Source: Planctomycetota bacterium
Lineage (GTDB): Bacteria; Planctomycetota; Phycisphaerae; Phycisphaerales; SM1A02
Reading direction: 5' to 3'
Assembly: GCA_024230295.1 (NCBI GenBank)
Contig: JAAERN010000032.1
Coordinates: forward strand, 1 to 64,000
DNA length: 64,000 bases
Position 1 is the stretch's first letter. Each line of letters begins with the position of its first letter. Below, in pieces: positions 44,571 to 52,118 of this stretch. The notes beneath the pieces were generated by a model, which saw nothing but the letters and a program-made list of their open reading frames with translations, did no database searches and was not told where the DNA came from. The translations under genes were made by a program, and so were the position numbers.

Positions 44571-44646
44571 GGACCGGCGGGATCTGGACCCCAAACAAGT
44601 GGTGACATGCGCCCAAGATGCGCGGTCGCCACGGGAGTATTCAGAT

Positions 44647-46875
44647 ATGGCAAATGCCACAGTTCATGTCGTTGAACGAGAAATCGGCGGCCGGACCCTT
44701 CGTATGGAGACGGGCCGCATCGCAAAGCTCGCTGACGGCTGCGTCATGGTCAGCCATGGCGACTCGGTCGTCATGTGCACGGCCGTGCGGGCCAACCCGC
44801 GTCCCGGCCTCGACTTCTTCCCGATGCAGTGCGACTATCGCGAGCGACTCAGTGCCGGCGGTAGCTTCCCCGGCGGATTCAGAAAGCGTGAGGGCGCTCC
44901 CAACGAGAAGGAAATCCTCACGATGCGGATGATCGATAGACCGATCCGTCCGCTCTTCCCCGACGGCTTCATCGACGAGATTCAAATTCAGTGCTGGACG
45001 ATGAGCCACGACGGCCAGAATGACACCGATGTGCTCGCGTGCACCGGTGGATCCGCCGCCGTAATGATGACCGATGCCCCGTTCCAGGGTCCGGTTGCGA
45101 CAGTCCGAGTCGGCCGCATCATGACCGACGACGGCGAGCAGTTCGTTATCAATCCGACGCATGCCCAGATGGAGTACTCCGATCTGGACATGGTTCTCTC
45201 GGGTCACTGCGACGGCATCAACATGATTGAAGTCGGCGCTGCCGAGGTTCCCGAAGACGCCATCCTTGCCGCCATCGAGTATGGCTACGAGCATGGCTGC
45301 AAGCCGATCATCGACATGCAGAACGAACTTCGCGAGAAGGCCGGCTGCCCCGAGGTTCGTATGGGAAGCCTTGCTCTTCCCGCCGACGATGTCACCGAGT
45401 TGGTGAACAAAGTCGCCGGTGAGGAAATGTTGACCTGCCGCCGCATCGGCGGCAAGGCCGATCGTCATGCCGCGGTCGATGCGCTTCGAGACAAGATGCT
45501 CGACGAGCACTTCAAACTTCCCGAGGGTGGTACGTATCAGGAGTACCAAGTTGCGGAGACGCGTCTGCGTCAGGCCCGTGAGGCCTTCCGTACGCTCGAG
45601 AAGAAGATGACCCGCAAACTGATTGTGGACGAGAGCACCCGCGCCGACGGCCGGGCATTCACGCAGATTCGCGACCTCGAAATCGAGGCTGGAATCTTCC
45701 CGCGAACGCACGGTTCATCGCTCTTCCAGCGCGGCGAAACGCAGGGTCTTCTGACTTGCGTCTTGGGTACTGGCCGCGACGAGCAAATCGTTGATGGCCT
45801 CATGCCCGAGTACGCCAAGAAGTTCTACCTGCACTACAACTTCCCGCCGTTCTGCGTCGGCGAAGCCCGCCGCATTATGGGTCCCGGTCGCCGAGAGATC
45901 GGCCATGGTGCCCTCGCCGAGCGATCACTCCTGGCGATTCTTCCGGACGTTGAGGACTTCCCTTACACGGTCCGGCTTGTCAGCGATATCACCGAGTCGA
46001 ACGGCTCTTCGTCGATGGCATCGGTCTGCGGTGGCTGCATGGCGATGATGGACGCAGGCGTGCCGATCAAGGCGACGTGCGCGGGCATCTCAGTCGGCCG
46101 CTTCAGCAATGCCGACGGCAAGATTGTCCGTGTGACCGACATCCTCGGCGAAGAGGACTTCTTCGGTGACATGGACTTCAAGGTCTGCGGTACGCGTAAC
46201 GGCATTACCGGCATCCAGCTCGACCTCAAGGCTCGCGGACTCTGGTTCGACGAGATCAAGGAGACCTTCGAGCAGGCTCGCGTTGGCCGCATCGAGATCA
46301 TCGAGCAGATGGAAGCCTGCCTGCCCGAGCCTCGTGCTGAGCTCAGTGCGTACGCCCCTCGCATCATGCAGGTCATGATCGACCCAGAGAAGATCGGCAA
46401 GTTGATCGGACCTGGTGGCAAGATGATTCGTGGTATTCAAGAGCGGACGGGCGCGACGATCGACGTCGACGACGACGGTACTGTCACGATCGCTTCCACC
46501 GACGGCAAGGCCGGCGATGCCGCCAAGGCCGAAGTCGAGGCTCTTGGCGCCGAGATCAAGGTCGGTACGGTCTACGAAGGCACGGTCGTTTCGACCAAGG
46601 ACTTCGGGGCCTTCATCGAACTCGTCCCCGGCACCGATGGCATGTGTCACATCTCCGAACTCGACAACGGATTCGTCAAGAGTGTGTCCGATGTCGTCTC
46701 GATCGGTGACAAGATCAAGGTCAAGGTCATCAACGTCGACAACACCGGCCGCATCAAGCTTTCCCGCAAGGCGCTGCTTGAGCCGGCCGAAGGTGACTCG
46801 GATGATAAGGGTGATGGCGGAGGCCGCCGTCGCCGTGGTAAGAAGAATGAGGACGCCGTGGAAACGGCATCCTGA
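44647..46875 (+). CDS. pnp: Polyribonucleotide nucleotidyltransferase (PNPase)
   Basis: GDSVVMCTAV, GSFPGGFRKREGAPNEKEILTMRMIDRPIRPLFPDGF; KH (IGKLIGPGGKMIRGIQERTGATIDVDDDGTV) and S1 domains. Confidence 0.97.
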   Translation: MANATVHVVEREIGGRTLRMETGRIAKLADGCVMVSHGDSVVMCTAVRANPRPGLDFFPMQCDYRERLSAGGSFPGGFRKREGAPNEKEILTMRMIDRPIRPLFPDGFIDEIQIQCWTMSHDGQNDTDVLACTGGSAAVMMTDAPFQGPVATVRVGRIMTDDGEQFVINPTHAQMEYSDLDMVLSGHCDGINMIEVGAAEVPEDAILAAIEYGYEHGCKPIIDMQNELREKAGCPEVRMGSLALPADDVTELVNKVAGEEMLTCRRIGGKADRHAAVDALRDKMLDEHFKLPEGGTYQEYQVAETRLRQAREAFRTLEKKMTRKLIVDESTRADGRAFTQIRDLEIEAGIFPRTHGSSLFQRGETQGLLTCVLGTGRDEQIVDGLMPEYAKKFYLHYNFPPFCVGEARRIMGPGRREIGHGALAERSLLAILPDVEDFPYTVRLVSDITESNGSSSMASVCGGCMAMMDAGVPIKATCAGISVGRFSNADGKIVRVTDILGEEDFFGDMDFKVCGTRNGITGIQLDLKARGLWFDEIKETFEQARVGRIEIIEQMEACLPEPRAELSAYAPRIMQVMIDPEKIGKLIGPGGKMIRGIQERTGATIDVDDDGTVTIASTDGKAGDAAKAEVEALGAEIKVGTVYEGTVVSTKDFGAFIELVPGTDGMCHISELDNGFVKSVSDVVSIGDKIKVKVINVDNTGRIKLSRKALLEPAEGDSDDKGDGGGRRRRGKKNEDAVETAS

Positions 46876-48479: not shown

Positions 48480-49685
48480 TCAGTCCAAGAAGTCTTTCGC
48501 CTTGAGCCGTGCCGGGACGTATTCCTCGGTGACGTAGGAAATGTCCTTGGTAATGAGCGACTCGACTTCCATCTTGAAGCCGTTGGCAAGAAGCGTCTTG
48601 ATTTCCTTCTGCCAAGGCCGCTTGTCCTTGAACCATGGGTACTCGGCGATCTGACGTGCGCGGGTAATGTCACGCTCATTGAGGGCAATGCGCACATCCG
48701 ACGAGAGATCACAGCGGTCGTAGTCCATCGCGCGAATACCCATGAACTTTGCGTCGGGGATCGCCATTCGCTCACTCTCGAATGCGAGGTTGATCGATCC
48801 CTGCTTGATGACGCTGTAGATGTAGTGTCCCCATGGATCGCAGTCGAGCAGGCAATAGATTGGAAGGCCGAGTTCCTTGTTGAGTCGGTGGAGCAGACGT
48901 CGCACGCCGCGCGGGGGCTGCCCAGAACCTTCTGTGAGGATGCAGTTGTGCGTCTCCCAGAATCGATCTTCGTTGAAGCGGCTCCAGACCGTGTCCTTCT
49001 CGACATGCAATACGAACTTCGCATCGCATTTCTTGAATCGAATGACGCTTGGTTCACAGATGCTCGGGATGGCATAGCCGCCCGTGCCCATGCGCCGGCA
49101 GTCGATCTCGTCGCCGTTGTCTTCAACAGTGATGTTGCCGACCATGGTGCCGCGTTTCTTAGCGAAGACGTGTAGTTCCTCGCGAAGTCCACCAAGTGAG
49201 ACTTCGAGATCCTCCAGCACGGTGTCGGATTCGCCCTGATCGTTGAAGGTCTTTTCTTTCGTCCCTTCGATTGTGTGCAGCGACATGTAGTACATGCCAC
49301 GCAGACTGAGTGTTTTCTCGGCTTTGATGAGTTCGCGGCTGCCCTTGGCCAACAGCAGTGTCTGCATGAACTTCCGTGCCTGGCCGACGTTGAAGAGGCT
49401 GCGAGTTTGCGTCGAGTCGCCCATCTCAAGGATGCGCTTCCGCTTGTTCCACTTCATGTTGGTGACCGTGCGAAGCGGAATCTCGACGTTCGGCTCCTTG
49501 CCCTTGAGGCCATCACGGGCGACATCGTCTGCGAGCAATTCAATGGCTCGCTTTGTGACTTTATCGCGTTCCTTGCTCACCGGAGCGCCACGCTTCTTGC
49601 TGGCGGTCTTGGGTGCGGCCTTCTTCTTCGCCGTTTTCTTGCTGGCGGACTTCTTTGTGGAGGTTGTCTTCTTTCGGGGGGGCAT
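48480..49685 (-). CDS. top6A: DNA topoisomerase VI subunit A (Spo11/TopVIA family)
   Basis: Catalytic-Tyr region LSLRGMYYMSLH; Toprim PIYCLLDCDPWGHYIYSVIKQGSINLAFESERMAIPDAKFMGI; Lys-rich N-terminal tail. Confidence 0.93.
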   Translation of the reverse strand: MPPRKKTTSTKKSASKKTAKKKAAPKTASKKRGAPVSKERDKVTKRAIELLADDVARDGLKGKEPNVEIPLRTVTNMKWNKRKRILEMGDSTQTRSLFNVGQARKFMQTLLLAKGSRELIKAEKTLSLRGMYYMSLHTIEGTKEKTFNDQGESDTVLEDLEVSLGGLREELHVFAKKRGTMVGNITVEDNGDEIDCRRMGTGGYAIPSICEPSVIRFKKCDAKFVLHVEKDTVWSRFNEDRFWETHNCILTEGSGQPPRGVRRLLHRLNKELGLPIYCLLDCDPWGHYIYSVIKQGSINLAFESERMAIPDAKFMGIRAMDYDRCDLSSDVRIALNERDITRARQIAEYPWFKDKRPWQKEIKTLLANGFKMEVESLITKDISYVTEEYVPARLKAKDFLD

Positions 49686-51490
49686 CAGCGTCTCGTTTTC
49701 TTCTTTGCCCGCGTGGCTTTCTTCTTTGTCTTCTTGCGTCGCCCCTTGAGCGTTACACCACCAAAGAGATCATCATTCTTGGATTCCTCACTCCCGCCGG
49801 TCTGGAGATCCTCGACAATGATGACGTCCGAATCCTTGGCAAGTCTGCCGCCGTCGTCGACAATCTTGCCCTCATCGTCGAGCCTCTGGTCAGCTTCGGC
49901 GGTCTTCTTCGCGGCTTGATTCTGGAGCGCCGCGTAAAGTTTCTTCGCATCAACGCCGGTGATGGCGTTGCAGGCCGAGGCAATCTCGCCGATGTAGCGC
50001 TCAAAGATACTGCGTCGCTCGGACTCTTTCTTCATCCGCTGCCGGCGGCGAAGATAGATCCCGAGTTTGCGCCCGCACTCCTGAAGCGCGAGCCGCATTT
50101 CCTTTCGAATCTCGTCGTAATCGGCGACTGCTTCTTTCGACTCGCTCGTGAACGGCACCCACACGCTCGCCATGTGAATCATGATGACGATCGGCCCGAC
50201 CGGGAGCCCGCCACGAGGCTGCTGCAGGCTGTAGTTCTTCCAGCCGGTTTCGACGACGGCCTTGAAGGAACTGCAAGCGCTCTGCTGATAGAGCAGGGGG
50301 ACCCGATTGGCGAATCGCAGAATGCGAGCCGACTCTTCTGTCTTGAGTTCGCCGCCGAAGGCGATAGCTACTTCCATTTGGAAGGGGTTGCCTCGGTACA
50401 CAGCGGGTGGGCGAGTGGCTGCCGCGAAGAACTCAGCCTTTACTTCCTTGAGCAGGCCCGCGAGAAGGGCCTTGGAACCGATCGGCACAAGGCAGTCGGT
50501 TGGCGGCGAAGTGATGCGTGTGTCCTGAATCGACTTATAGAGTTTCTCGGCTTCGGCGTGGCCGACGTTCTTGACCCATGTTCGCGAGGTCATTCCGGCG
50601 CCTTCGGCGAGCTGCTTGGCTTTTTGCTGGCCGACACGGCAAAAGTCCTTCTGGAGGAAGCCGCCGAGCTGGCGCGCCTCGGTCCGCTCAAGCATCTGGA
50701 TGAGCGTGCCGAGTTCAATGCCCTTGGGGTGCGGCTTGATCTCCTTGGCTTCTTCAGGCAGTTCGTCCATCGCCCGCGGAAACTCGATCGTTTCATTGCT
50801 CGGTGTGATGTATGTGATCTGCGCGTGCGGATTGGCGATGGCTGTCTGCTCGAGATACTCGTCGACGCTTTGGCGTCCCTTCTGGTACTTACCTTCGAGT
50901 TCGATGGCGACGATCGTGCCACGGCCTTCGGGGAAGAGTTTGTCGTCTTCGGGATGTTCGGTGTCGCTGACAACCTCTGCCTTGTTCTTCGAGGTGTCAA
51001 TTTTCAGGACAACCTCGTGCGAAGGCTTCCGAGGGCCGGTCTTGGAAATGATCTTGACCGGCTTGCCTGTCGTCATGAGGCCGTACATGCCAGCGGCAGA
51101 GATGCCGATGCCCTGCTGTCCACGGCTCATCTTCATGCGGTGGAATTTCGATCCGTAGAGCAGTTTGCCGAAGATGTTCTCGATCTGCTTGCGGACGATG
51201 CCTGGGCCATTGTCCTGCACGGTGATCTTGAATCGAGTTTCGTCGAGTTGCAGCAGGTGGATCTTGAGCGCGGGGAGGATGCCAGCTTCTTCGCACGCGT
51301 CGAGGGCATTGTCGACAGCTTCTTTGACCGTCGTGAGCATTGCCTTGCGGGCGTTGTCGAAACCGAGGAGGTGGCGGTTCTTAGCAAAGAACTCGCTGAC
51401 CGATATCTCTCGCTGGCTGGCAGCCATCGATTCGGCAGTGGCTTTTTTTCGGGACTTCTTCTTGGCTGCCACGGGCACCTGGGGCTCCAT
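49685..51490 (-). CDS. top6B: DNA topoisomerase VI subunit B (GHKL ATPase)
   Basis: Bergerat motifs EAVDNALDACEEAG, VQDNGPGIVRKQIENIFGKLLYGSKFHR, RGQQGIGISAAGMYGLMTTG; TSPPTDCLVPIG; Lys-rich C-terminal tail; TGATG junction with top6A. Confidence 0.94.
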   Translation of the reverse strand: MEPQVPVAAKKKSRKKATAESMAASQREISVSEFFAKNRHLLGFDNARKAMLTTVKEAVDNALDACEEAGILPALKIHLLQLDETRFKITVQDNGPGIVRKQIENIFGKLLYGSKFHRMKMSRGQQGIGISAAGMYGLMTTGKPVKIISKTGPRKPSHEVVLKIDTSKNKAEVVSDTEHPEDDKLFPEGRGTIVAIELEGKYQKGRQSVDEYLEQTAIANPHAQITYITPSNETIEFPRAMDELPEEAKEIKPHPKGIELGTLIQMLERTEARQLGGFLQKDFCRVGQQKAKQLAEGAGMTSRTWVKNVGHAEAEKLYKSIQDTRITSPPTDCLVPIGSKALLAGLLKEVKAEFFAAATRPPAVYRGNPFQMEVAIAFGGELKTEESARILRFANRVPLLYQQSACSSFKAVVETGWKNYSLQQPRGGLPVGPIVIMIHMASVWVPFTSESKEAVADYDEIRKEMRLALQECGRKLGIYLRRRQRMKKESERRSIFERYIGEIASACNAITGVDAKKLYAALQNQAAKKTAEADQRLDDEGKIVDDGGRLAKDSDVIIVEDLQTGGSEESKNDDLFGGVTLKGRRKKTKKKATRAKKKTRR

Positions 51491-51647: not shown

Positions 51648-52118
51648 ATGGAAACCACCCTCATCATCCTCAAGCCGGACGCCGTGCAGCGGGGCCTCAT
51701 GGGCCGCATCATCAGCCGTTTCGAGGACAAGGGCATTCAGGTCGTCGGGGCCAAGTTCATGCAGATCTCGGGCGATTTGGCTGCGAAGCACTACGAGTCG
51801 CATCAGGGCAAGCCCTTCTATGACGGTCTCGTCGGCTTCATGACCAGTTCGCCTGTCTTGGTGCTGGCACTCCGCGGCGTCGGCGCGATCGCGATCTGCC
51901 GGAAGATGATGGGCGCGACCTTTGGCAGCAACGCTGAGCCCGGAACGATTCGAGGCGACTTCGGTGTCTCCAACAGTTTCAACCTCATCCATGGCTCCGA
52001 TAGCCCCGAGGCAGCTCAGCACGAACTCGGGCTGTTTTTTACTGATGGCGAGGTCCTTGATTGGAGCCGTGCGAGCGAGGGCTGGGTCTACGACCTGAGC
52101 GGTGGCGATCCCGAGTGA
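51648..52118 (+). CDS. ndk: Nucleoside diphosphate kinase
   Basis: TLIILKPDAVQRGLMGRIISRFEDKG, FNLIHGSDSPEAAQHEL. Confidence 0.97.
   Translation: METTLIILKPDAVQRGLMGRIISRFEDKGIQVVGAKFMQISGDLAAKHYESHQGKPFYDGLVGFMTSSPVLVLALRGVGAIAICRKMMGATFGSNAEPGTIRGDFGVSNSFNLIHGSDSPEAAQHELGLFFTDGEVLDWSRASEGWVYDLSGGDPE

Follow-up and report, generated by a model that had tools for sequence, protein, structure and literature searches.

Topo VI has been solved from the archaea M. mazei (2q2e/9o0g), S. shibatae (2zbk) and M. jannaschii (1d3y), and its domain order, catalytic motifs, B fold and B-A gene pair are common to the locus described here. The archaeal B proteins examined were without flexible ends bearing clamp-like motifs, unlike the bacterial B proteins, and the M. 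mazei B subunit has an Ig-like C-terminal domain in place of such a tail (PMC11302465). Topo VI in planctomycetes has already been published by Allen & Maxwell 2024 (PMC11302465), who treat its bacterial role as unsettled. In Pyrococcus, topo VI subunits co-purify with the PCNA-binding protein NucS according to a review (PMC4929162). The consensus of the bacterial clamp-binding motif (CBM) is QL[S/D]LF or more generally QxxLF, with natural xxxLF variants in DnaE3 proteins (PMC12309361). No paper attributing a clamp-binding motif to a type II topoisomerase of bacteria, whether topo IV/ParC or topo VI, was found in the open-licence literature, and the main text of PMC11302465 has no mention of clamp-like motifs, of the Phycisphaerales or of a topo IV swap within an order.

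The window, meaning the whole 64,000-nucleotide stretch of planctomycete DNA analysed, carries top6B (49685-51490) and top6A (48480-49685) on the minus strand, encoding proteins of 601 and 401 aa identified by Pfam, NCBIfam and solved-structure matches. Both ORFs were intact and the stop of top6B shares one base with the start of top6A (TGATG), which bears out the two translationally coupled subunits described in the earlier note. The length of VI-B was counted from the genus-conserved start MEPxVPVxxKKK; starting instead from the in-frame codon at 51736 would lengthen the protein but run the ORF into a plus-strand gene that begins near 51650. Subunit A contains the Pfam domains TP6A_N, Topo_VI_alpha and TOP6A-Spo11_Toprim and subunit B contains HATPase_c and Topo-VIb_trans (transducer, 50015-50506), the type IIB arrangement of a CAP-type Tyr domain (TP6A_N) and Toprim in A with a GHKL ATPase and transducer in B. 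The diagnostic motifs listed in the earlier note were all found on the minus strand, including the GHKL N box KEAVDNALDA (B residues 56-65, 51296-51325), the G1 box DNGPGI (residues 93-98, 51197-51214) and the G2 box GQQGIGI (residues 124-130, 51101-51121; GQQGIGIS in full). The Toprim motif DCDPWG (A residues 281-286, 48828-48845) was invariant in the alignment of relatives, as was the predicted catalytic Tyr133 in GMYYMS (49287-49289), which was also backed by the archaeal alignment; the second Tyr of this motif is assigned as the catalytic one by analogy with the family.

Each subunit scored above the cut-off of its NCBIfam topo VI model, and the two matched solved archaeal Topo VI with E = 1.6e-75 (A) and 2.6e-154 (B), values at which a chance match can be dismissed. 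Trees built without Spo11 and Topo VIII sequences placed the window proteins with topo VI. By domains, families and structure comparison the pair is a genuine, complete Topo VI. The alternative of a Topo VIII or Mini-A protein was not upheld, as the subunits are separate and full-length, a phage database search gave no match and a plasmid search gave haloarchaeal plasmid matches only, which together support its being neither. Several NCBIfam models and haloarchaeal plasmid records mislabel Topo VI A as 'DNA topoisomerase IV subunit A', an error by which topo VI is concealed.

The window genome is Phycisphaerales-like and its nearest named relatives are Phycisphaerales MAGs (B identity 94%). 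Matches to PF04406 were present in 52 of 61 near relatives and VI-B was present in 109 of the 158 genomes of the class, so that Topo VI is the rule within the class and not an oddity. The earlier note was right to call the enzyme topo VI, while its description as one known from a minority of bacteria does not fit this class. That note had also raised the question of gyrAB and parCE. Gyrase was present, with one GyrB and one genuine full GyrA, and topo IV was absent from the genome, where a search for ParC/ParE gave none beyond gyrase. Planctomycete carriers without topo IV were likewise described by Allen & Maxwell 2024 (PMC11302465).

A second PF00521 match in the window genome was a GyrA fragment on a 3.05-kb contig (C42), where it adjoins a GuaB3-like ORF and mimics a second type IIA topoisomerase. 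A ParC was rejected for this genome and C42 was regarded as a contaminant, probably cyanobacterial, because the closest solved relative of the GuaB3-like ORF is 8p4q and congeners have no second gyrA copy.

Exactly one GyrA/ParC (PF00521) gene was found in 107 of the 109 topo VI genomes of the class; the two exceptions, the window genome with its contaminant and one genome with two weaker, probably partial matches, both look artefactual. Among the 49 class genomes without topo VI, thirteen had two or more PF00521 genes and thirty-six had one (Fisher p = 4e-6 for topo VI versus an extra PF00521 gene, kinship ignored). Topo VI and topo IV thus hardly co-occur in the class and neither is strictly required. 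Strict reciprocity between the two was rejected on the thirty-six topo VI-less genomes with a single GyrA/ParC gene, and these also indicate that some bacteria can do without a dedicated decatenase. In one genome of the same order (G050, family f2, 98% complete) no topo VI was found, and no second gene of the GyrA/ParC or GyrB/ParE type either, a possible recent loss given that its congeners have topo VI. Family f6, also of this order, has topo IV in place of topo VI and represents a lineage-level exchange. All eight sampled f6 genomes had two PF00521 genes and no VI-B, all five checked also had two PF00204 genes, and a ParE-type gene lay downstream of ParC in several loci.

The basic tails pointed out in the earlier note were present as described, at the N-terminus of A (residues 1-39, 49569-49685, minus strand, predicted disordered) and at the C-terminus of B (KGRRKKTKKKATRAKKKTRR, residues 582-601, 49688-49747, minus strand). 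Of the 48 A subunits examined, that of the window among them, nearly all began with a basic N-terminal tail (11-94 aa) of unconserved sequence. The C-terminal tail of B usually combines one LF with an acidic stretch and a hydrophobic strand (DVIIVED), and a basic run is often present as well. In close relatives the occurrence and basic charge of the tails were kept and their sequence and length were not. It is plausible on this pattern of charge without sequence or length conservation that the tails contact DNA, although unspecifically. An AlphaFold model of B left residues 562-601 disordered (pLDDT < 50) with a small strand just before the tail; the model of A (pLDDT 62) was too poor for a fold search. 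A flexible, partly basic tail (GGGRRRRGKKNED) was also present on the PNPase of the window (44599-46875), and basic tails are therefore not unique to topo VI here.

Just before the basic C-terminal tail of B stands NDDLFGG, which the earlier note had missed and which includes the conserved, predicted clamp-binding motif NDDLF (B residues 572-576, 49763-49777, minus strand). An LF was present in 125 of 140 non-redundant B tails against 9.0 expected by shuffling, an expectation that overstates independence as the sequences share ancestry, and it never occurred twice in a tail. Lineages differ in where the LF stands with respect to the basic run. Most members of the window's family have an internal LF, while in some lineages the B protein ends on it and many relatives have DGPxLF at the extreme C-terminus. 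As background, 13 of 59 window ORFs had LF/LY in the last 70 aa.

Proteins that bind the beta clamp (DnaE, DinB, MutS, Hda) carry QxxLF/xxxLF or QLxLxF in a flexible segment, and bacterial VI-B likewise carries its motif in one. The window motif has the LF of positions 4-5 in a segment of pLDDT < 50 but differs from the consensus of these proteins in having Asn at position 1, where Gln was found in 13% of the C-tail motifs of relatives. Loss of this Q weakens clamp binding in studied cases. Since the Q is absent, and although natural Q-less CBMs have been described, the window VI-B is best termed CBM-like and would not count as a proven CBM member. A PSSM comparison with the DinB/DnaE motifs put 116 of 126 sites above the shuffled median and 41 at p < 0.05, a result in favour of the match to which composition may contribute. 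Related genomes supplied positive controls, in which the C-terminal part of DinB included EGPGLFD, GEQLGLF, EQLDLFDD, TQESLFED and EQMGLF, and DnaE included GQGQLFGG or GQGNLFGG; the window genome's own DnaE had no LF at the expected place. DnaN of the window genome keeps TDGRRL and a C-terminal MPV, and compared with the E. coli pocket residues its pocket is canonical.

A VI-B tree separated a tail-less clade (several class families, Gemmatimonadota and Myxococcota) from a tailed clade (Phycisphaerales and others, Nitrospirota, Elusimicrobiota and Rokubacteria) with archaea outside both, and the two bacterial clusters of Allen & Maxwell 2024 (PMC11302465) were thereby seen again. In an A tree with fewer rows the tail-less group joined M. 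jannaschii. N-terminal extensions of the tail-less clade included QMSFDF, QMNFNF, QMELF, QGELF, QLNLAF, QMSLDF and GPSLFGG, and basal members of the tailed clade had N-terminal QLSLAF, QLTLPF, QLQLPF or QMTLDF besides the C-terminal LF. The hexapeptide Q[LMI]x[LFM]x[FL] was found in 23 of 119 bacterial B N-extensions, their start codons being inferred, against 0.07 expected. Further examples were QMDLL in Gemmatimonadota, TLSLF in Myxococcota and QIALF, QAALF and QQELF in Nitrospira tails. No motif could be recognised in about 15 of the 122 B proteins examined from bacteria, among them those of family f23, Rokubacteria and some Elusimicrobia (the script returned 18, three of which carry a motif outside its limits), and no clamp-like motif was found in two nanoarchaeal B proteins.

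Several loci met in this comparison were of separate interest. In the tail-less clade (L206-L246) mostly no A subunit was found within ~2 kb of VI-B and the A/B gene pair appears split. A record named 'Leptolyngbya sp. PLA1' has a VI-B that branches inside Phycisphaerae and appears to be a mislabelled MAG. A 482-kb viral contig (IMG/VR 3300028558_000016) carries overlapping topo VI-B and VI-A genes, with B 33% identical to that of the window, and a family B DNA polymerase lies ~2 kb downstream of them. By eye, one large viral contig seemed to have a sliding-clamp gene next to topo VI, but follow-up gave this no support. Another contig filed as viral (IMG/VR 3300037657_000197), with topo VI genes adjoining a transketolase-like ORF and a B N-terminus of DQLTLDM, looks like planctomycete DNA.

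The ParC of family f6 takes the place of topo VI on an unrelated, type IIA strand-passage scaffold and has the same module of a basic run and DxLF at its N-terminus. This was the case for six of six f6 ParC proteins examined (MAKRKKRKQDESLF, MAKRKRTKKDDSDLF, MAKRRSNKSISADDGSLF, MAKKK...GDDASLF, MARKK...QADDAGLF and MAAKKSRRKLSVSATDFDERSLF) and for none of twelve GyrA proteins from f6 and related genomes. The module begins at inferred TTG/GTG starts, which are supported only by purine-rich sites (GGAGG or AGGAAGGA) before the start where the upstream f6 DNA was visible. The probability of LF arising by chance in five of these extensions was ~9e-7 by shuffling with shared ancestry ignored. In family f11 genomes with extra PF00521 genes, the PF00521 matches examined had GyrA-type N-termini. 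That the replacing ParC has basic and LF elements and GyrA does not argues that the module may serve the decatenase job and not the topo VI fold.

The conserved LF motif suggests binding to another protein, for which the sliding clamp is the likeliest candidate. Conservation of LF demands a partner without naming one, and a real short linear motif that binds something other than DnaN, such as an SSB-tail-binding site, SMC/ScpAB or a planctomycete-specific partner, would suit the acidic, Q-less DDLF of the window family and the terminal DGPxLF of many relatives, which resembles SSB tails. Such a partner nonetheless seems unlikely, as sister lineages carry textbook clamp hexapeptides and the same spectrum of LF motifs is seen in DinB and DnaE of related genomes. 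The mostly internal LF of the window's family also speaks against it, and SSB-C-terminus mimicry as a general explanation was rejected on that ground.

The earlier note suggested that the tails may be DNA-binding or nucleoid-anchoring additions. A reading in which they bind DNA or the nucleoid nonspecifically and do nothing more, with the LF incidental, draws on the recurrence of Lys/Arg-rich tails on A and B across relatives and on the partly basic PNPase tail. It is improbable given the single LF in 125 of 140 tails, where 9 were expected, and the LF and basic runs on f6 ParC, although DNA binding by the basic part remains compatible with these observations. In gyrase and topo IV, tails are known regulators of activity, and the LF could similarly act inside the enzyme, controlling the ATP gate by binding Topo VI-A or the GHKL domain, a proposal with which the small strand before the B tail agrees. 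This is very improbable when the motif switches between N- and C-terminus from clade to clade, recurs on the unrelated ParC scaffold and lies in a region that AlphaFold leaves disordered.

The best reading of these sequences, and in our judgement a reasonably probable one, is a decatenase tethered to the replication clamp through a portable tail module. Topo VI (A2B2, ATP-gated double-strand passage) would be the chromosome decatenase of a bacterium with gyrase plus topo VI, in which the B subunit would have acquired flexible termini that carry a short clamp-binding motif beside basic stretches. We infer that NDDLF inserts into the hydrophobic pocket of DnaN, the beta sliding clamp that stays on the DNA after the fork has passed, and that DNA is gripped by the Lys/Arg tails of both subunits. 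Strand passage would thereby be placed on freshly replicated sister duplexes, which is where topo IV acts in other bacteria.

The LF motif offers a concrete and cheaply testable role for bacterial topo VI, in which the sliding clamp would recruit the enzyme behind the fork, and the replacement by topo IV within a single bacterial order provides a natural matched comparison. The chances appear evenly balanced that bacterial topo VI in general is replisome-tethered through clamp-binding motifs acquired at one or other end of its B subunit and that selection has kept the portable basic and LF tether rather than the type of decatenase. If true, the enzyme would be, as far as the open-licence literature shows, the first type II topoisomerase of bacteria tethered to the clamp, and a short peptide would tie decatenation to replication.
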